NCBI GenBank assembly: GCA_024709185.1
Contig: JANJXE010000225.1
Span: forward strand, 1-12,409
Direction: 5' to 3'
DNA: 12,409 nucleotides
From: Paludibacter sp.
GTDB taxonomy: Bacteria > Bacteroidota > Bacteroidia > Bacteroidales > Paludibacteraceae
Shown: positions 1,212-8,987 of the stretch, piece after piece
Numbering within the stretch: position 1 is the stretch's first letter
Layout: each line of letters begins with the position of its first letter
The notes under the pieces: model-generated
Seen by the model: the letters and a program-made list of their open reading frames with translations, nothing else
Told to the model about the DNA's origin: nothing
The model's database searches: none
Translations under genes and position numbers: made by a program

Positions 1212-1880
1212 TTACTCTGTCCGCAGTCTTAATCCCAACTTAATTTTGCTTTCAAGTGTAAGTGATGGATCGCGCTCGAGGTACTTGCGCAGGACTGTCA
1301 CATTATTATTTAGCGAACCTTCTTTCAATCGGGTATCACGGGTTTTCCATACAGTTTCAATAATTATATCGCGGCTCACAAAATTATCTTTGTTTTTGCA
1401 CAAGAGCAACAATACTTCCGAAGAATAATTATTCAGGTACAGTTCTTCCCCGTCGACCTCCAACTTGTGCTGATCAGGATAAAAACGAAGATTCCCAATT
1501 TCGAAACACTGTACAGCAGCTTCTTTGACTACAAGCTTTTCGATGCGCTTCAATACTTCGGCGAGTCGATAGGGTTTTCGCACATAATCTGTATTAGGGA
1601 TGCTGAATGCCTGATCAAAATCGGAATTTTCGTCGCGCGAAGTTGTAAATAACAAGGGTACATCACTCAACTCCCTGATTTTTCTGCTAATGGCAAAACC
1701 ATCCAGCTCTTCGTTTAAATTCACATCCAGCAACACAATATCGGGCTTGAAATTGATCAACTCCTTTAATGCCATAGCACCACCAGGCAGATATTTCACC
1801 GAATACGCACGTTCCTCCAGCGCACCCCGCAAGGTAGTGCCCAGATTCAGATCATCTTCAATTAATAAAACTTTGTACAT
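1212..1880 (-). CDS. OmpR/PhoB-family response regulator
   Basis: This 222-residue protein is a cytoplasmic DNA-binding response regulator, expected to be phosphorylated by the kinase encoded just upstream. The receiver domain covers residues 1-115: acidic pocket ED at 8-9, phospho-acceptor Asp52 in LLDVN, conserved Thr80 in LFTTSR, and Lys102 in RKPYR. A winged-helix output domain follows (about 125-222), with VSRDIIIETVW and a recognition-helix region NNNVTVLRKYL. The end, KLGLRLRTE, replaces the usual GxGYxL of the C-terminal hairpin. Only 21 bp separate it from the kinase stop, so the two are almost certainly co-transcribed, kinase first. OmpR-type regulators bind tandem direct repeats about 11 bp apart; repeats with 11 and 22 bp periods stand upstream of the peptide and HNH genes, making these likely targets (inference). 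No specific named regulator was recognised. Confidence 0.93.
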   Translation of the reverse strand: MYKVLLIEDDLNLGTTLRGALEERAYSVKYLPGGAMALKELINFKPDIVLLDVNLNEELDGFAISRKIRELSDVPLLFTTSRDENSDFDQAFSIPNTDYVRKPYRLAEVLKRIEKLVVKEAAVQCFEIGNLRFYPDQHKLEVDGEELYLNNYSSEVLLLLCKNKDNFVSRDIIIETVWKTRDTRLKEGSLNNNVTVLRKYLERDPSLTLESKIKLGLRLRTE

Positions 1881-1901
1881 ATATCTTTCGTATTTATATT
1901 T

Positions 1902-3251
1902 TTAACTTACGGGCAACACTACTTTAAATTCACTTCCAACGCCCGTTTTACTGCTTACTTTCACTTCGCCCCTGTGTTGTTCCACGATGTTTTTAACGTA
2001 GTTCAAACCAATACCAAATCCTTTAATCTGAGTGATACCCTGATGCACACGGCTGTACTTATCAAATACCAGATCGAGCTTGTCTTCCGGGATCCCAAAT
2101 CCATTATCCTGAATTCCTACCGAAACCTGCTGGTTTTCAGTCTGTAGCCGAATCAGAATTTGAACATCATCGCCCGAGTATTTGATAGCATTGTCGATGA
2201 GGTTGGCAAAACATTGTGTTAACAGCTGTTTATCACCATCAATGGCAGGTAAATTATCTGCCACATCGAGATTAATCGTCACCTGTTTGTTTTTAAAGCG
2301 TTGTTCACTGAATTTATCCTTCAAATCTTCAATGATATCCAGCAACTCAACCCGTTCCTTATTAAGAATCAACATTCCCTCTTCGAGTTTCGATAAGGTA
2401 ACAATCATATTGATGGCATCGTTTAGCTCATCGGTAGCCCGTATCGAATTATTCAACAGCAAACTGTTTTGTGGTGTATTAAGGGTTGCTGCCGACATAC
2501 TCAGGCAATCGAGGTTAAAGGTAAGGCTCGATACCGGCCGCTTGAGTTCGTGAGCTATTGTGCCCAGGAATTCGTTTTTAAAGGCTACCAGCTGTTTCTG
2601 ACGGGCAAGTACTTTTTGGAGATACATAAAGGCCAGCAAACAAATTATCGACAATACCAACGACGATGCCAACATAAGTCCCATTCGTTTAATGATAATC
2701 TGAAATGGGTTAATCAGGTGCAACTGAAGGGCAATGGAATTGGCAGCATCGATAAGCATGGGTTCACTGGATATCATAAAAAGGGATGACTGCCAGTTTT
2801 CGCGGGAGCTTTGGATTAATTCGCCTGTTTTTTGATTGATAATATTAACGGTAAAGGTGCTTTGAAATTCACGAGTTGTCATGATCGTGGAAGTGATGCT
2901 GTCGAGACGGTGTAAATTGAGAGGTACAGTGGGGCTGATATGGAGGTGGATAATCATGTCCAAACCGCTGACGACGTTGGCCGTTTTTGCACTTGTGAGG
3001 TCCAAAACTGTCATATCTTCATTTTCAGGCAATGTTGGAGCAATCACAACAGTCGACTCATTGATTGTTTCTCTGTATTTATCATTCCGGATCGTCAGGT
3101 CAGCCCGAAACGCTTCCTCGAGTATTGCATTCGATTCTTTCGTCCAGGCAGCACGGGTTGTGTTGTAATAATCGTTAACCAAAAAGATCTGTGTCCCGAA
3201 GATCAGGATTAGTGATGCAAGCACAAGAAAAAAACCGGTTTTTGACGACAT
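1902..3251 (-). CDS. Membrane sensor histidine kinase (HisKA/HATPase_c)
   Basis: This 449-residue transmembrane sensor kinase pairs with the downstream regulator. A first membrane helix spans about residues 6-25 and a second about 191-211, leaving an extracytoplasmic sensor of roughly 165 residues that resembles no sensor family recognised here. The dimerisation and phospho-acceptor helix has His234 in HELKRPVSSL, where classical kinases usually have HELRTP or HELKTP. The ATP-binding domain has the N box LIDNAIKY (Asn354), the G1 box DNGFGIP (382-388), the F box VFDKYSRV and the G2 box GFGIGL (411-416), ending VGSEFKVVLPV. All catalytic motifs are present, so it should be active. There is no HAMP domain between helix 2 and His234. 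The gene is divergent from the peptide gene across a repeat-rich region of about 490 bp, so the secreted peptide is a reasonable candidate ligand, but nothing in the sequence proves it. Confidence 0.93.
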   Translation of the reverse strand: MSSKTGFFLVLASLILIFGTQIFLVNDYYNTTRAAWTKESNAILEEAFRADLTIRNDKYRETINESTVVIAPTLPENEDMTVLDLTSAKTANVVSGLDMIIHLHISPTVPLNLHRLDSITSTIMTTREFQSTFTVNIINQKTGELIQSSRENWQSSLFMISSEPMLIDAANSIALQLHLINPFQIIIKRMGLMLASSLVLSIICLLAFMYLQKVLARQKQLVAFKNEFLGTIAHELKRPVSSLTFNLDCLSMSAATLNTPQNSLLLNNSIRATDELNDAINMIVTLSKLEEGMLILNKERVELLDIIEDLKDKFSEQRFKNKQVTINLDVADNLPAIDGDKQLLTQCFANLIDNAIKYSGDDVQILIRLQTENQQVSVGIQDNGFGIPEDKLDLVFDKYSRVHQGITQIKGFGIGLNYVKNIVEQHRGEVKVSSKTGVGSEFKVVLPVS

Positions 3252-3351
3252 GGTATCCGTTGAATATATAGTATAATATTAGCTCCTTATTTTGCGTTCG
3301 AAATTACACATTTTTTGCGTGTTACGCAGGGGGTACCCGGGCAAAATTTCG

Positions 3352-3369
3352 AAGTTCTCACAAAGCACT
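3352..3369. repeat. Left arm of 18 bp inverted repeat
   Basis: AAGTTCTCACAAAGCACT at 3352-3369 is the exact reverse complement of 3560-3577. The 190 bp separation makes a transcript hairpin unlikely; two copies of one protein-binding site in opposite orientation, perhaps joined by a DNA loop, is the simpler reading. Further partial copies, CTCACAAAA (3369-3377) and CTCACAAAC (3400-3408), follow at 12 and 31 bp. Confidence 0.85.
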
Positions 3370-3559
3370 CACAAAATCCTCATTTTTGTCACATTTTCAC
3401 TCACAAACTTTACGCAAAAGAAACGGGAAAACAAGAATTACGAGCCCCCAAAATTACTAAAAATCGGAGATTTCATTACAAATCGACGAAATAATATTAA
3501 GAATTATTATTTTCACATCATTTTATACAAAATTATTAGCTTTTTTTATGTGAAATATT

Positions 3560-3600
3560 AGTGCTTTGTGAGAACTTTTGTAGTGCTTTGTGAGCTCAAC
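3560..3600 (+). promoter_or_regulatory. Operator with 22 bp-spaced direct repeats upstream of the peptide promoter
   Basis: AGTGCTTTGTGAG occurs twice, at 3560-3572 and 3582-3594, exactly 22 bp apart, or two helical turns. The first copy extends to GTGAGAAC (3568-3575) and the second to GTGAGCTCAAC (3590-3600). The block ends 16 bp before the -7-like element at 3617, the position expected of an activator bound next to RNA polymerase. It aligns without gaps to 4050-4090 upstream of the HNH gene with 29 of 41 identities. The adjacent OmpR-type regulator is the most economical candidate to bind here, which is inference. Confidence 0.7.
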
Positions 3601-3616
3601 CCTTCATTTTATACTA

Positions 3617-3624
3617 TAATATTG
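3617..3624 (+). promoter_or_regulatory. Candidate Bacteroidetes -7 promoter element of the peptide gene
   Basis: TAATATTG matches TAnnTTTG at all but one fixed position. Transcription would begin near 3630, giving a leader RNA of about 115 nt before the peptide start. That leader contains another CTCACAAAG copy (3655-3663) and a small hairpin TCACT-aag-AGTGA (3686-3698). Support comes from the same element at the same distance from the matching operator at the HNH promoter. Confidence 0.6.
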
Positions 3625-3654
3625 TAAGGTAATTAAAAATTACAAAACAAGCAG

Positions 3655-3663
3655 CTCACAAAG
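3655..3663 (+). repeat. CTCACAAAG operator-like copy in the peptide leader region
   Basis: This is an exact CTCACAAAG, lying within AGCTCACAAAGCT and downstream of the predicted peptide promoter. A site in the transcribed leader could serve as a repression or feedback site if the same regulator binds it. It has the orientation opposite to the two copies at 3564 and 3586. Confidence 0.5.
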
Positions 3664-3743
3664 CTACAAAAAGAAAAGGATACCCTCACTAAGAGTGACT
3701 AAAACAGAAGAATCAAAATTATTAATACAAAAATTAAAAGAGT

Positions 3744-3872
3744 ATGAAAACTACAAAAAAAACAGCTGCCGAATTCACAACTTTGAATGCAGCACAGATG
3801 AATGAAGTTAAAGGCGGTTATTGGATTAAAGTTCTTACTGCTGACGGAAGAATCACTATTCTTTGGGTATAA
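3744..3872 (+). CDS. Double-glycine-leader peptide precursor (42 aa), substrate of the C39 exporter
   Basis: This 42-codon gene encodes a predicted secreted-peptide precursor. The leader (residues 1-25) begins MKTTKKTAAEF and ends MNEVKGG. Taking Gly25 as -1, hydrophobic residues fall at -4 (V22), -7 (M19), -12 (L14) and -15 (F11), the pattern recognised by C39 peptidase domains of PCAT exporters. The predicted product after GG is YWIKVLTADGRITILWV, 17 residues, with no Cys, net charge about +1, Trp near each end, and two hydrophobic strands around TADGR that could form a beta-hairpin. No modification enzyme lies in the window, so it may act unmodified. The ATG follows an A-rich stretch with weak AAAAGAG, normal for Bacteroidetes. 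A strong terminator follows about 50 bp after the stop, so it is probably monocistronic. It could be a bacteriocin or a pheromone; the neighbouring two-component system favours a signalling role. No named peptide family was matched. Confidence 0.85.
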   Translation: MKTTKKTAAEFTTLNAAQMNEVKGGYWIKVLTADGRITILWV

Positions 3873-3900
3873 AGAAACAGAAATTCTGACAGAAGAATTC

Positions 3901-3919
3901 ATTGCTTCCTGTAAGCAAT
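3901..3919 (+). other. Small hairpin in the 3' region of the peptide transcript
   Basis: ATTGCTT (3901-3907) and AAGCAAT (3913-3919) form a 7 bp stem with a five-base loop immediately before the main terminator. With imperfect pairing around GAAATTCT and AGAATTC (3880-3900), the 3' end of the peptide transcript looks highly structured, which could stabilise a short abundant mRNA. Confidence 0.45.
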
Positions 3920-3924
3920 AAAAT

Positions 3925-3967
3925 CGAACGGCAAACAATCAGTGCATTGTTTGCCGTTCGGTTTTTA
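3925..3967 (+). terminator. Rho-independent terminator of the peptide gene
   Basis: CGAACGGCAAACAAT (3925-3939) pairs perfectly with 3946-3960 around the hexaloop CAGTGC and is followed by GTTTTTAAA. This is a 15 bp G+C-containing stem with a U-tract, a textbook intrinsic terminator. It separates the peptide gene from the HNH gene and implies that the latter needs its own promoter, found at 4107. Confidence 0.92.
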
Positions 3968-4045
3968 AAGGATAACACCCTTCGAAAAAACCGTTGCAGG
4001 GCGCAGAATGCATAAAAATAAATTGTGAATTTACATTAACATGCC

Positions 4046-4090
4046 CGTTAGAACTTCGTTAGAACATTGGTAGTAGCATGTGAGTTGAAC
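4046..4090 (+). promoter_or_regulatory. Second operator copy, upstream of the HNH nuclease promoter
   Basis: CGTTAGAAC occurs twice, at 4046-4054 and 4057-4065, exactly 11 bp apart, followed by GTAGT (4070-4074) and GTGAGTTGAAC (4080-4090). The last three blocks lie exactly 490 bp from GTGAGAAC, GTAGT and GTGAGCTCAAC at the peptide promoter. The 11 bp period is typical of tandem half-sites for OmpR-type regulators. The block ends 16 bp before a -7-like element, as at the peptide gene. Confidence 0.7.
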
Positions 4091-4106
4091 CAATTGAATT
4101 AAGTTC

Positions 4107-4114
4107 TATACTTG
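4107..4114 (+). promoter_or_regulatory. Candidate -7 promoter element of the HNH/barrel operon
   Basis: TATACTTG differs from TAnnTTTG at one fixed position and lies exactly 490 bp from the -7-like element of the peptide gene, so operator-to-promoter spacing is the same. Transcription would begin near 4120, which argues against the in-frame GTG at 4117 being a start codon. Confidence 0.6.
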
Positions 4115-4140
4115 CAGTGTACAATAACAACAGCACAACC

Positions 4141-4578
4141 ATGCAGACAGATGTATTACAATTCAGGCTACTCCCTTCTTGTGTTAACGACATGCACCAA
4201 CAGCGGGAACGGTTTATCAGCGCCATCGGCTTTTTTCAATCTGCTAAAAATTTCTCAATGAAACGATTCCGCAACACAGATCAAAACGGGAATAACTGGT
4301 CGCAGGAGCTAATCAGGGCCGTTTGGAATAAGGGACAGGAAATTCCCGGCTTCGATCCCGATAAATACCGCAAGGACTGTTGTGGTGCCTGGATGCAATT
4401 CAATAAGTTCGGACATATTTCCGAGAATGGTGTGGGTTGGGAAATCGACCACATCCAGCCCATCTCAAAAGGAGGCACCGACGACCTGAGCAACCTTCAG
4501 CCCCTGCAATGGCAAAATAACCGCAGCAAAGGCGAAGAATTCCCCGCCGATGATTATGCGGTTATTGGTTCGTATTAA
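4141..4578 (+). CDS. Small HNH endonuclease domain protein
   Basis: The protein has 145 residues from the ATG at 4141. Its C-terminal half carries an HNH motif: VGWEIDHIQPISKGGTDDLS, then NLQPLQWQNNRSKGE, providing the Asp-His pair, the central Asn and the final Asn/Lys region of a metal-dependent nuclease. Upstream, VWNKGQEIPGFDPDKYRKDCCGAWMQF resembles the N-terminal part of short Bacteroidetes HNH proteins of about 100 residues. These often begin near the ATG at 4258 (MKRFRN), which is therefore an alternative start; the first 39 residues have no recognisable domain. The ATG at 4141 was preferred because the frame is open and lies just downstream of the predicted promoter. There is no signal peptide and no GG leader, so it is probably cytoplasmic. 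Only 11 bp separate it from the barrel gene, and it shares operator architecture with the peptide gene. Its role in the system is unknown. Family assignment is firm; start and function are not. Confidence 0.8.
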   Translation: MQTDVLQFRLLPSCVNDMHQQRERFISAIGFFQSAKNFSMKRFRNTDQNGNNWSQELIRAVWNKGQEIPGFDPDKYRKDCCGAWMQFNKFGHISENGVGWEIDHIQPISKGGTDDLSNLQPLQWQNNRSKGEEFPADDYAVIGSY

Positions 4579-4589
4579 TTTTCACGACT

Positions 4590-5390
4590 ATGAAAAAAAA
4601 CCTAGAGTTAATCATTATTCTTGTTTCATTTTTATTCTCAGAATCCAAAGCTCAATCCAACGACAGTTTCACGAAAGATGACAGTTGGAAATTTGCCGCT
4701 GGAGTAACATTGTATAGCAACACAGACTACAGTGGTGGTTATATTGATTTGACTCATAGACCCCTGGAATTTAATCTGAGATATAAAATCAGTAATAATC
4801 ATGTTCTTCGGATGGGTTTACCTTTAGTGATAAAAGAAAATTTATGGGGTTCAATTTCCTATCCACCAAATTATGATGAACAAAACTCTCTTGAAGATTA
4901 CTACAAACTGATGTTATCTGAGGATGCTAGAGAATACTTCCAAATGGTAGGAAACAACTACAGCATGTATGGTATTACACTCGGGTATGATTACAATTAC
5001 TCATTTACTCCTGCATTCTCTGCTTTTGCAGGAGTGGACTTAGCCTATTATTATTCACTACGTAGATTGAACTTTTATGGTATTACTTATTTGAAACCTA
5101 TTGATAATTCTTCAAAAATACTTATGATGGAGTATGTTCAGGAAAATGATTATTTTTACAAATATGCCATAAATCCAATAGCAGGAATCCGTTATCAATA
5201 TCAAAAACTACTAATTGAAGTTTCTTTAGGCTGTTCTTTTTACAATTTAAAATACACAGTGAATAAAAAATTCAATAAATTTAATCCTGGTGAAAATAAT
5301 AATACTGAGTATAGTGAGGAGTTAAATCAACCATTTCTGGGTATTCAACAACAATTTGTATCTCAACTATCATTATATTATACATTATAA
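4590..5390 (+). CDS. Predicted outer-membrane beta-barrel protein of unknown function
   Basis: This 266-residue protein begins with a typical Sec signal peptide, MKKNLELIIILVSFLFSESKA, with cleavage predicted before QSND. The rest alternates hydrophobic and polar residues and is rich in Tyr, Phe and Asn, with strand-like segments such as WKFAAGVTLY, LEFNLRYKI, YGITLGYDYNY, FSAFAGVDLAYYYSL, IAGIRYQY, LLIEVSLGCSFYNLKYTV and the final QLSLYYTL. This suggests a small barrel of perhaps 8-12 strands in the outer membrane. It is far too short and unlike TolC to be the export channel. Codons are markedly A+T-rich compared with the HNH and exporter genes on either side, suggesting a separate origin. 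It lies 11 bp after the HNH gene, probably in the same transcript. It could be a receptor, an immunity component or a passive neighbour; no family was recognised by name. Confidence 0.75.
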   Translation: MKKNLELIIILVSFLFSESKAQSNDSFTKDDSWKFAAGVTLYSNTDYSGGYIDLTHRPLEFNLRYKISNNHVLRMGLPLVIKENLWGSISYPPNYDEQNSLEDYYKLMLSEDAREYFQMVGNNYSMYGITLGYDYNYSFTPAFSAFAGVDLAYYYSLRRLNFYGITYLKPIDNSSKILMMEYVQENDYFYKYAINPIAGIRYQYQKLLIEVSLGCSFYNLKYTVNKKFNKFNPGENNNTEYSEELNQPFLGIQQQFVSQLSLYYTL

Positions 5391-5466
5391 TTATTCATTT
5401 GAACTAAAAAAATATTTTATTTTCTGTAATCATTCAATTTTGTCCTTTTACCTGCTATTTTTTATA

Positions 5467-5474
5467 TAATATTG
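5467..5474 (+). promoter_or_regulatory. Candidate -7 element of the exporter operon
   Basis: TAATATTG, identical to the peptide gene's -7-like element, lies 28 bp before the exporter ATG in an A+T-rich 112 bp gap. The operator seen at the other two promoters is absent at the corresponding upstream position, so the exporter genes may be expressed independently of the peptide. Confidence 0.5.
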
Positions 5475-5502
5475 CAGCCTCAAAGTAAGAAAAGAGTAAA
5501 GC

Positions 5503-7695
5503 ATGCAATTCCCTTTTTACGCTCAGCACGACGCCATGGACTGCGGCCCTTCCTGTTTACGGATGGTGGCCGCTTTCCATGGCCGCGTGTTTTCACTCGA
5601 ATACCTGCGCGGTAAAGCCGGCATCAATCGCGAAGGCGTATCGCTTCTGGGTATCAGCGAAGCCGCTGAAGCTATCGGGATGCGCTCTACCGGTGTGATG
5701 GTTTCGTTCGACGAACTCATTACGGCTCCCTTTCCCTGTATTGTGCACTGGAATCAGGAACACTTTGTGGTAGTTTATGATGTGCGCAGGAAGCGCGGAA
5801 AAACCATGGTGTATGTGGCCGACCCGGCTGGTGGCAAACAACAATACACCCGCGAGGAGTTTTGCCGTTGCTGGATCAGTTCGCGCCAGGGCGATAAGGA
5901 ACTGGGTATTGCCTTGTTGCTCGAAACAACTCCTGAGTTTTTTGCCAGGGACAACGAAAAGGTCAACAGGCGTGGTTTTCGCTTTCTTTGGAGTTATATT
6001 CGTCCGCACCGGAAATTTATTCATCAGGTACTGCTCGGTATCCTTGCAGGAAGTCTGTTGCAACTGGTGCTTCCGTTTCTTACCCAATCGATAGTCGATA
6101 TTGGTATCTCCTCGCAGGATATCAGTTACATAGGCCTTGTACTCATCGCCCAACTGATGCTCATTATCAGTGGTACTGCGATTGATTTCATTCGCGGTTG
6201 GATTTTACTTCACCTGGGTACCCGTGTAAATATCGCACTGATATCCGATTTTCTGATTAAACTGATGCGACTTCCCCTGGGTTATTTTGATACAAAAATG
6301 ACCGGTGACATCCTTCAACGCATCAACGACCATACCCGCATTCAGCATTACCTCACCAATTCAAGTCTGAACATCCTGTTTTCGCTGGTTACGCTTGTAA
6401 TTTTCAGCTTTGTAATATTATTGTATAGCTTCCCGGTATTTGCCATCTTCATCGTGGGCAGTAGTCTGTATTTTGCCTGGGTATGGCTGTTTATGAAACA
6501 AAGGGCATCTCTCGACCACAAGAATTTCGCGCTTCAATCCGCCAATCAGAGCAATGTGATACAACTGGTGAACGGCATGCAGGAAATTCGTCTGAGTGGT
6601 AGCGAGAAACAAAAACGCTGGGAGTGGGAACGCCTGCAGGCCCGTATGTTTCGCCTCCGGATCAAAGGGCTGGCACTGGCTCAGTACCAGGATTCGGGCG
6701 CTGTATTCATCAACCAGACAAAAAACCTCCTGATAACCGCCTTAGTTGCCAAATTAGTCATCGACGGGCAAATGACGCTGGGTATGATGTTGGCCGTACA
6801 GTATATCATTGGTCAACTCAATGCTCCTGTCGATCAGCTGATTACCTTTATGAGAGAAAGTCAGGATGCGCGCCTGAGCCTCGAACGCCTCAGTGAAGTA
6901 CACGAAAAAGAGGATGAAGAATCATCCTCCGGTGAAAATATTCAGGAAATACCTGCGGGGCAGGATATCGTATTATCCAATATTTTCTTTAGTTACGACA
7001 CCACCCGCATGGGCATTCCTGTAATTAAAGGGATTGACTTACGCATCCCGGCGGGAAAGCAAACAGCCATTGTGGGCACCAGCGGAAGTGGCAAGACAAC
7101 CCTGGTGAAGCTGATGCTTGGTTTCTACCCCCTTCAACAGGGCGAAATTTTACTGGGCCCGCACCGGCTTGATACTTTTAGCATGCGCGAATGGCGAAGG
7201 CGCTGCGGGGTGGTAATGCAGGATGGCTATATTTTCTCCGACACCATTGCCCGCAATATAGCACCCGGCGAAGAGAATATTGATAAAGCAAAACTCCTGC
7301 AAGCGGTAGAAGTTGCCAATATCCGTGAATACATTGAAACCTTGCCGTTGGCCTACAACACAAAGATTGGTCAGGAAGGGATTGGACTGAGTCAGGGGCA
7401 AAAGCAGCGCATTCTTATCGCAAGAGCTGTGTACAAAGATCCGGAGGTAGTGTTCCTCGACGAAGCCACCAATGCGCTCGACACCAATAACGAACGGGCG
7501 ATTATGCAACAATTAGAGCAGTTTCTGAACGGACGGACATCTATTGTGGTGGCACATCGTTTAAGTACAGTACGCAATGCCGATCAGATTGTGGTTATTG
7601 AGGATGGAATGATTGCCGAACAGGGCACGCATAACGAATTGCTCGCTGCCGGAGGAGCCTACTATCGCTTGGTGAAAAATCAATTAGACGTATAA
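5503..7695 (+). CDS. Peptidase-containing ABC transporter (C39 peptidase, membrane, ATPase)
   Basis: This 730-residue inner-membrane exporter cuts double-glycine leaders and pumps the released peptide outward. The N-terminal C39 domain (about 1-145) has oxyanion Gln8, catalytic Cys14 in MDCGPSCL, His87 in EHFVVV and Asp107 in DPAGG, so protease activity should be intact. The membrane domain (about 165-455) has about six hydrophobic helices. The ATPase domain (about 485-730) has Walker A GTSGSGKTT (525-533), Q-loop Gln573, signature LSQGQKQR (629-636), Walker B VVFLDEA (649-655) and switch His685 in AHRLST. Length and order match the PCAT family used for bacteriocins and peptide pheromones. 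Its stop overlaps the hlyD-like start by one base, a sign of translational coupling. The double-glycine peptide at 3744 is the only substrate visible in the window. Confidence 0.96.
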   Translation: MQFPFYAQHDAMDCGPSCLRMVAAFHGRVFSLEYLRGKAGINREGVSLLGISEAAEAIGMRSTGVMVSFDELITAPFPCIVHWNQEHFVVVYDVRRKRGKTMVYVADPAGGKQQYTREEFCRCWISSRQGDKELGIALLLETTPEFFARDNEKVNRRGFRFLWSYIRPHRKFIHQVLLGILAGSLLQLVLPFLTQSIVDIGISSQDISYIGLVLIAQLMLIISGTAIDFIRGWILLHLGTRVNIALISDFLIKLMRLPLGYFDTKMTGDILQRINDHTRIQHYLTNSSLNILFSLVTLVIFSFVILLYSFPVFAIFIVGSSLYFAWVWLFMKQRASLDHKNFALQSANQSNVIQLVNGMQEIRLSGSEKQKRWEWERLQARMFRLRIKGLALAQYQDSGAVFINQTKNLLITALVAKLVIDGQMTLGMMLAVQYIIGQLNAPVDQLITFMRESQDARLSLERLSEVHEKEDEESSSGENIQEIPAGQDIVLSNIFFSYDTTRMGIPVIKGIDLRIPAGKQTAIVGTSGSGKTTLVKLMLGFYPLQQGEILLGPHRLDTFSMREWRRRCGVVMQDGYIFSDTIARNIAPGEENIDKAKLLQAVEVANIREYIETLPLAYNTKIGQEGIGLSQGQKQRILIARAVYKDPEVVFLDEATNALDTNNERAIMQQLEQFLNGRTSIVVAHRLSTVRNADQIVVIEDGMIAEQGTHNELLAAGGAYYRLVKNQLDV

Positions 7696-8987
7696 TGAAG
7701 GAAACAGATAAGATACAGTTGCGCAGCGATGAAGTTCAGGAGATTCTGAGCCGGCCACCCCATTCACTTATCCGTTACGGGATACTGGTAATCAGCCTGA
7801 TTATCCTTGCCGCTTTTATCACGAGCTTTTTCTTTACCTATCCCGACCGGGTATCAGGGAACGTGTCGATAACCAGCAGTGCTCCGCCCGTTTGGGTAGT
7901 GACTCGCTCCGAGGGTATGCTGAGCGGATTGTATTGCACCGATCAGCAACAGGTGAATGCTGGCGATGTGCTCGGCGTAATCGATAATCCCGCACGAACA
8001 GAAGATGTATTGAAGTTACGTACTATCTTACAAAACACCGTCTTTGAGGAAAACAAACTGGCCTATTCACCGCAACTACTCAACGACCGATTCGAACTGG
8101 GTACTGTGCAGCCTGCTTTTTCACAGTTTATCGTGGCTGCCATTGCGTACCGTAACTTTTTGCAGCTTAATCTTACTGAAAAAGAGCAGGCCATTATCAG
8201 TCAACAACTTAGCAACCGGCGCGAATACCGCAGTTTGCTGCTGCAACAAATCGCGACCAAGGAAAAAGAACTCGAGATTGAACGCTTGGTGTATGAACGG
8301 GATAAGCAGTTGTTTCAACAAAAAGTGGTAGCTGAATCAGATTTACAACAGGCTGAGCAACGACTACTCAGCCGGAAGAACGAATTGGATCAACTGAAAA
8401 CATCGGCATCGCTCGAGAACATTGAAACGGCACAACTTTCGGGATCGCTGCAGAAACTGACAGTGCAGCAATTGCGTGAAAAGAACCAGCTGTATTCGTC
8501 GCTAAAATCGGCTTTACTGGAACTGGAAACTGCACTCAGCGAATGGCAGTACAACTATTTGTTAACCGCACCAGCTTCAGGCGTAGTAAGTTTCAATGGA
8601 TTGTGGAACGAACAGCAATACATTTCGAAAGATCAGAAGTTGATGGCTGTAGTCCCTGCAGCTCCTTCCAACTTCACAGGTCGAATGCTGATGCCGGTAT
8701 CGGGAGCAGGAAAAGTAGAGAAAGGACAACTTGTAATGTTGAAGTTGCACGATTATCCGTACCTCGAATTTGGAATGCTGAGAGCCCGGGTTGAAAAAAT
8801 CGCCCTCGTACCCGATGAGCAATATTATGCGGTTGAGATTTCGTTTGAAAAAGAGCTGCGTACCACTACCGGTAAGCTGTTGCCACTGCAGGGTGAGCTC
8901 ACTGGCAGTGCCGAAATTATCACCAACAAACGCAGTTTGATGGAACGAATCCTGGCACCGGTAATTTATTTACTGAAAAGGGTATAA
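7695..8987 (+). CDS. HlyD-family periplasmic adaptor (membrane fusion protein)
   Basis: This 430-residue adaptor links the ABC exporter to an outer-membrane channel. It has a short cytoplasmic N-terminus, one membrane helix at about 28-48, a first lipoyl half near 65-97 (RSEGMLSG, VNAGDVLGVIDN), a long Gln/Glu/Leu-rich coiled-coil hairpin at about 160-285, a second lipoyl half starting LTAPASGVVSF (290-300), and a beta-barrel region to the C-terminus. The start codon overlaps the exporter stop (TAATG). This pairing is standard for Gram-negative export of GG-leader peptides. No TolC-like channel gene is in the window, so a channel encoded elsewhere is probably shared. No promoter separates it from the exporter. 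Confidence 0.93.
   Translation: MKETDKIQLRSDEVQEILSRPPHSLIRYGILVISLIILAAFITSFFFTYPDRVSGNVSITSSAPPVWVVTRSEGMLSGLYCTDQQQVNAGDVLGVIDNPARTEDVLKLRTILQNTVFEENKLAYSPQLLNDRFELGTVQPAFSQFIVAAIAYRNFLQLNLTEKEQAIISQQLSNRREYRSLLLQQIATKEKELEIERLVYERDKQLFQQKVVAESDLQQAEQRLLSRKNELDQLKTSASLENIETAQLSGSLQKLTVQQLREKNQLYSSLKSALLELETALSEWQYNYLLTAPASGVVSFNGLWNEQQYISKDQKLMAVVPAAPSNFTGRMLMPVSGAGKVEKGQLVMLKLHDYPYLEFGMLRARVEKIALVPDEQYYAVEISFEKELRTTTGKLLPLQGELTGSAEIITNKRSLMERILAPVIYLLKRV

Follow-up and report, generated by a model that had tools for sequence, protein, structure and literature searches.

A double-glycine peptide gene divergent from a histidine kinase/OmpR-type regulator pair suggests a peptide-pheromone circuit in Paludibacter and other Bacteroidales

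What is a short double-glycine (GG) peptide gene doing back to back with a sensor kinase gene in Paludibacter, and how many of the genes around it belong to the same system? The window, by which we mean the whole stretch of DNA analysed here (12,409 nucleotides), is the entire contig C167 of a MAG that is 82.65% complete (G000). An earlier note on this sequence had proposed a self-contained peptide signalling or antagonism system made up of a kinase/regulator pair, a GG precursor, an HNH nuclease, a beta-barrel, a C39 exporter and its adaptor. We verified all seven ORFs where it had placed them, the barrel-like one without a family match over cut-off. Kinase and regulator are transcribed leftward; peptide, HNH protein, barrel-like protein, exporter and adaptor follow rightward:

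1212..1880, minus strand: OmpR/PhoB-type response regulator (PF00072, Response_reg, 62 bits; PF00486, Trans_reg_C, 33 bits; both above cut-off)
1902..3251, minus strand: sensor histidine kinase (PF00512, HisKA, and PF02518, HATPase_c, above cut-off)
3350..3382, minus strand: three 11-bp repeats facing the kinase gene, TGAGGATTTTG TGAGTGCTTTG TGAGAACTTCG
3558..3594, plus strand: peptide-promoter repeats, three 11-bp units and a terminal TGAG, TTAGTGCTTTG TGAGAACTTTT GTAGTGCTTTG TGAG
3615..3624, plus strand: TATAATATTG, which we take to be a promoter-like element, 20 bp downstream of the peptide-promoter repeats
3744..3872, plus strand: 42-aa GG peptide precursor, with a 25-aa leader and the 17-aa core YWIKVLTADGRITILWV after the presumed cut site
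4048..4084, plus strand: pre-HNH repeats, three 11-bp units and a terminal TGAG, TTAGAACTTCG TTAGAACATTG GTAGTAGCATG TGAG
4141..4578, plus strand: HNH nuclease-like protein, 145 aa (PF01844 above cut-off), with an N-terminal extension of about 40 aa
4590..5390, plus strand: barrel-like secreted protein (by eye), 11 nt after the HNH gene
5503..7695, plus strand: C39 peptidase ABC exporter (Peptidase_C39, ABC_membrane and ABC_tran above cut-off)
7695..8987, plus strand: HlyD-type adaptor (PF13437, HlyD_3, above cut-off)

The flanking genes are asnB-, pyrF-, prfA- and purL-like, named by eye and not by a model; the asnB- and pyrF-like flanks recur in the two relatives closest to the window (L029 and two contigs of G030).

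The peptide scores below the cut-off of every listed Pfam and NCBIfam model, including those for TIGR04149 rSAM RiPPs (13.4 against 25 bits) and class I lanthipeptides (17.6 against 22 bits), and a modification enzyme next to the precursor is missing from the seven window proteins scanned with Pfam and NCBIfam. That the peptide is more than a chance ORF is shown by 87 relatives in the protein database at E<1e-5, several of them one peptide with alternative starts; a Pfam domain is listed for none of the 87. The GG is present in 87 of 87, with the reservation that the search profile itself had an invariant GG. If the core is taken as the residues after the last glycine of the leader, it measures 16-21 aa in 85 of the 87, and Cys is absent from all of them; a single Cys occurs in the more distant peptides L261 and L266 and in P0208, which is not among the 87. 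Every core carries a (D/N/K)G turn (DG 56, NG 28, KG 3), with mainly hydrophobic residues before it and alternating hydrophobic and polar residues after it, a pattern that suggests a hairpin shape for the core of about 17 aa. The 87 peptides comprise 76 distinct cores, on leaders with a weak likeness to those of pheromones and bacteriocins. Some loci carry near-identical or identical tandem copies of the peptide gene (three at L049:10760-11297, two at L042:8880-9192), and some have extra GG peptides with longer, bacteriocin-like cores some kilobases from the signalling peptide (L038:2127-3303, L037:6456-6635).

How firmly is this peptide tied to the kinase? A kinase search of 100 relatives gave 26 rows at or above 240 bits, corresponding to 25 genes, as two rows are one G030 gene on two contig ends; two kinases lacking the upstream side (G015:C553 and G041) were set aside, leaving 23. 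An intact divergent GG peptide of 39-44 aa lies beside 14 of these. Four more have a broken or altered peptide: three stops in G002, one stop in G040:C218, the leader only in G039, and KE in place of GG in G016. The remaining five have none beside the kinase (G037, G038, G017, G015:C79, G005:C55). Across the 19 loci examined for spacing, broken ones included, the start codons of peptide and kinase are 172-518 bp apart. The earlier note had regarded a kinase/regulator pair usually found apart from the peptide as fatal to its proposal; what we find is adjacency to an intact peptide in 14 of 23 cases. At the G002 locus (L036:8679-12334), where the remnant with three stops lies, a transposase-like ORF (by eye) stands between kinase and regulator, as if the circuit were in decay.

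The converse search gives a similar picture. A profile of the 14 peptides, run over 48 Paludibacter genomes, found 20 sites in 16 genomes, of which 17 adjoin a family kinase, one (G040:C33) adjoins a more distant kinase/regulator pair, and two are at a contig end. This count is partly circular, as the profile contains 13 of the 20, which had been selected next to kinases. Of the seven sites outside the profile, four adjoin a family kinase (one being an identical second copy), one the distant kinase and two a contig end; none of the seven in the 48 genomes lies away from a kinase. The two contig-end sites, both on G045:C25, are probably one split locus, because G045:C20 begins with a peptide and a kinase. 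In L121, likewise outside the profile, peptide and kinase are adjacent.

The pairing extends beyond the genus. In 393 Bacteroidales genomes the peptide profile matched eight places at E<=1e-5: the window, three in G061 (all in the profile) and four new ones, of which three (G669, G802:C7 and G674) have the peptide next to a kinase/regulator pair, the fourth (G749) running into a contig end. A weaker match in G584 (E 3e-4) also has such a pair, and a wider profile added G754 and G802:C9, both with the pair. Six peptide/kinase pairs are thus known beyond the genus, found with profiles not containing them and belonging to four other Bacteroidales families by genome labels. We also considered whether GG leaders in general adjoin kinases: among 23 loci fetched for weaker matches (16 and 7, chosen from longer lists), only G584 and G802:C9 have the pair, and these two have short cores (16 and 19 aa) with the turn glycine. 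The other 21 show no kinase-profile match within 4.5 kb of the peptide match and have mostly longer cores; one of them, L306, has neither a peptide match nor any kinase-profile match at all. In a phylum-wide search of 395 genomes, all peptide matches besides the window reached at most 29.5 bits, and no family kinase was found near such weak matches in the five loci fetched. The kinase search over 395 genomes drawn evenly from the phylum returned 29 genomes that match at E<=1e-60; outside the window genome the top score is 273 bits, from the same order. Named relatives are mostly from Paludibacter and other Bacteroidales MAGs, which puts the window in Paludibacter or close by. The core of the system, a GG peptide divergent from a kinase/OmpR-type regulator pair, is smaller and more widespread than the earlier note proposed.

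OmpR/PhoB-type regulators bind tandem 11-bp direct repeats. The self-similarity of the 19 peptide promoters peaks at lag 11 (mean z 2.03) and next at lag 22 (1.62), all other lags from 5 to 30 staying at or below 0.62. At lag 11, 57 other intergenic regions from the same loci average 0.07 (p 4.8e-6), and z exceeds 2 in 9 of the 19 test loci against 3 of the 57 controls. The direct-repeat promoter of the peptide gene is a property of the 19 loci as a group: the window itself has z 1.0 at lag 11 and 3.4 at lag 22, and the lag-11 signal is absent from L037 (-1.0), L188 (-0.2) and L043 (0.2). A matrix built from the units before the peptide gene in the three closest species (window, L029, L052), with the HNH-side units left out, scores the HNH-side repeats at 28.2, 20.6 and 30.6, respectively, against 15.1 for the best of 20 mononucleotide shuffles of the window; the HNH-side repeats had been noticed by eye beforehand. 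On the kinase side it gives 38.2 in the window and 38.3 in L052, and only 14.9, below the best shuffle, in L029. No repeats were found upstream of the C39 gene (best score -4.8 in 5381-5510). Genome-wide, a consensus box written from the window's own sites and allowing up to three mismatches has four matches (three sites) in G000, all in the window, five in G034, four of them in the locus, and seven in G030, five of them at the locus. Reversing the pattern still yields 3, 1 and 3 matches in the same genomes, so single matches off the locus may be chance. One mismatch-free G030 box (G030:C14) lies ahead of a gene at L209:4231-5724 for a 497-aa protein, lipoprotein-like by eye and without a Pfam match, followed by about five similar tandem genes (L209:1009-4240), one confirmed as DUF6705; this layout recalls a toxin with several immunity genes.

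The kinase has two hydrophobic helices (by eye) and a sensor region at about residues 29-190. AlphaFold2 models the full kinase with a mean pLDDT of 76.9 and a pTM of 0.47, and the sensor alone with 80.1 and 0.75; in the kinase model the sensor region consists of one long helix, two shorter helices and five strands. A recognised peptide-binding fold was not supported, as Foldseek against the PDB with the sensor alone gave no match at E<=0.001 (the CzcS and CusS sensor domains, among the matches at E 0.7-2.3, are not evidence), and the best 50 matches listed for the full model are mostly kinase cores. Nor is the pair RprXY: RprY is the best NCBIfam match of the regulator, at 118.8 bits against an equivalog cut-off of 370.

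Distances were compared over the 15 pairs whose kinase is full-length, among them L121 and G016 with its KE peptide. Core distance correlates with sensor distance at r 0.80 and with kinase-domain distance at 0.51. The partial correlation of core and sensor given the kinase domain is 0.73, that of core and kinase domain given the sensor -0.16, shared ancestry not being removed from either; the corresponding values for the leader are 0.45 (sensor) and 0.14 (kinase). The core-sensor partial r stays at 0.47-0.75 after removal of outliers or of a clade of four, and is 0.63 (n=13) with the regulator as control. In six of seven permutation runs none of 2000 permutations reached the observed value, and one did in the smallest run. 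The core thus covaries with the sensor domain of the kinase and not with its kinase domain, with ancestry controlled in part.

Gene linkage, common promoter repeats, sensor-core covariation and a genome-wide association of peptide and C39 protein, described below, were all computed directly, and in our judgement they probably reflect a three-component, autoinducing peptide-pheromone circuit. The 42-aa precursor would be cleaved after the double glycine, and its core would leave the cell through the C39 ABC exporter, working with the HlyD adaptor and a TolC-like channel whose gene lies elsewhere. The adjacent kinase would sense this hairpin-like peptide of about 17 aa through its extracytoplasmic domain, and the OmpR-type regulator would then bind the tandem 11-bp repeats, raising expression of the kinase/regulator and peptide genes in a positive feedback and, in the window's clade, also that of the HNH(-barrel) unit.

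A different way to account for the same linkage is to regard the peptide as an effector, perhaps a small bacteriocin, and the kinase as a sensor of something else, such as envelope stress or a competitor, so that the linkage would reflect no more than control of the effector. Bacteroidetocins also combine a GG leader with a C39 exporter, according to the part of the published account available to us (PMC6671954), and in some loci additional bacteriocin-like GG peptides lie some kilobases away (L038:2127-2324). However, the short and Cys-free cores described above (single Cys residues being confined to L261, L266 and the excluded P0208), the lack of a recognised immunity gene next to the window peptide, the covariation of the core with the sensor rather than the kinase domain, and the fact that the peptide remains with the kinase where the exporter is elsewhere all speak against it, and we consider it unlikely. 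Antagonism by the peptide itself, one of the two roles offered by the earlier note, finds no support here in view of the first two of these points.

The window exporter is the only C39 match in its genome, where proteins of the OEP (TolC-type) family are encoded elsewhere. A window-type C39 exporter with HlyD lies within about 6.5 kb of the peptide in at least 8 of the 23 loci (G000, G034, G030, G006, G003, G029, G040 and, via a second contig, G045), and G018 has a different C39 protein nearby; such locus counts, like those for the HNH and barrel-like genes, are lower bounds because several contigs end soon after the peptide. The exporter thus usually lies apart from peptide and kinase, an outcome that the earlier note had named as counting against its proposal. 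Across whole genomes, though, 13 of the 14 Paludibacter genomes that have an intact GG peptide contain a C39 match, compared with 10 of the remaining 34 (Fisher p 7e-5, uncorrected for ancestry). The exception, G020, has an intact GG peptide and no C39 match, in an assembly that is 85% complete and on a contig ending 2.4 kb past the peptide. No C39 match was found in G016 (KE for GG), which fits the association, nor in G039 (leader only) or G017 (no peptide), yet C39 is present in G002, G015, G037 and G038, which have the kinase without an intact peptide.

This association also bears on whether the peptide might act on its own kinase inside the producing cell or its periplasm, as self-sensing feedback instead of cell-to-cell signalling. 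The very tight pairing of the two genes would suit such feedback, and so would G016, a single contig of 3,685,504 bases, whose peptide (L047:10712-10840) retains the usual hairpin-like core with KE for GG in a genome without a C39 match. Against these stand the conservation of GG throughout the 87 database relatives, found with a profile in which it was invariant, and the genome-wide link to C39, which together make purely internal sensing improbable.

What, then, of the genes between peptide and exporter? For the HNH protein, a start at 4141 (145 aa) is more likely than one at 4117, the 13 closest homologues having 144-147 aa. Its N-terminal extension (about 40 aa, 4141-4260) is nearly constant in length and variable in sequence among these homologues. 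An HNH protein with such a long extension is found in at least 3 of the 23 loci, namely the window and the two loci closest to it; in G016 a shorter HNH protein is encoded about 1.9 kb from the peptide. The barrel-like protein has no Pfam or NCBIfam match over cut-off, its name resting on our reading of the sequence and on one of 19 database homologues (P0214), which carries PF05150; among the 23 loci it occurs in at least one, the window. With these counts, HNH and barrel-like protein were rejected as core parts. The combination put forward in the earlier note was too inclusive in this respect, while its pairing of peptide and kinase holds across genomes. It was probably right about the HNH link, and co-regulation is possible for the HNH gene, which is preceded by repeats in the three closest species. 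It is very improbable that the window amounts to a single effector system, built around HNH and barrel and with regulation dedicated to it, as the earlier note framed it: the repeats before HNH in three species and the 11 nt between the two genes fit it, but the place of these scarce genes is elsewhere taken by DUF6261 or unrelated genes. In six loci (L033, L036, L037, L190, L191, L192) the peptide gene, or what is left of it, is followed by a DUF6261 gene (three assignments confirmed by Pfam, three by similarity to those), possibly a recurrent output.

Finally, we would like to place this circuit among the systems it resembles. The open-licence PMC literature searched yielded no description of a comparable peptide/kinase family from Bacteroidota; one review, in the part available, treats quorum sensing in Bacteroides and Porphyromonas via acyl-homoserine lactones and autoinducing peptides via Agr (PMC11641729). 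On balance we lean towards a family of Gram-negative peptide quorum-sensing systems, so far undescribed, in Bacteroidales, with hairpin pheromones of about 17 aa in many pherotypes, dedicated kinases with extracytoplasmic domains, OmpR-type autoinduction via tandem 11-bp repeats, receptor-only lineages in which the signal has been lost, and clade-specific outputs such as HNH. If this reading is right, the circuit supplies a receptor, a reporter promoter and a signal that can be synthesised as a 17-mer, making peptide quorum sensing in Bacteroidota directly testable and possibly of use for circuits in commensal bacteria.

Bacteroidetocins are likewise Bacteroidales GG peptides with a C39-type exporter. 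As far as the accessible text goes, they have 15-16-aa leaders and Cys-containing toxins of 42-48 aa, accompanied by a TM protein and, in most cases, a gene for a thiol oxidoreductase; the main text of the paper does not contain the word 'sensor' (PMC6671954). The window core, of 17 aa and without Cys, differs from these and from class II bacteriocins, which are Cys-containing and about 40 aa long. The Bacteroidales RiPP cluster BGC5 shares precursors near an HK and an RR, for which its authors suggested signalling; in contrast to the window, its predicted cores are long, and it has two rSAM enzymes, three that are LanC-like and, in the portion of the paper available, no transporter (PMC10352776). 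RaxX-RaxSTAB of Xanthomonas, judged from a partial source, offers another Gram-negative peptide with a C39-type exporter. RaxX differs from the window peptide in being tyrosine-sulfated and sensed by a plant receptor.

In Firmicutes, the ComCDE, BlpCRH and plantaricin systems combine a GG pheromone, a C39 exporter with adaptor, an HPK10 kinase/LytTR regulator pair and direct-repeat promoters. The window shares with them the short GG-leader peptide beside a kinase/regulator pair, the exporter and adaptor, and the direct repeats; the leader of L266 even passes the Pfam ComC cut-off (21.9 against 20.4 bits). It differs in its HisKA kinase, which has two hydrophobic helices and an extracytoplasmic region where HPK10 is polytopic, in its OmpR-type regulator (Trans_reg_C) in place of LytTR, in a hairpin-like core with a constant turn Gly, and in its Gram-negative Bacteroidales host. 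Because the two defining features, HPK10 and LytTR, fail, the circuit is not a member of the Firmicutes family. The earlier note's idea of a pheromone-type circuit built on an HPK/OmpR pair instead agrees with the HisKA/HATPase_c and Trans_reg_C domains found, and linkage and promoter repeats argue for the signalling function we propose for it.
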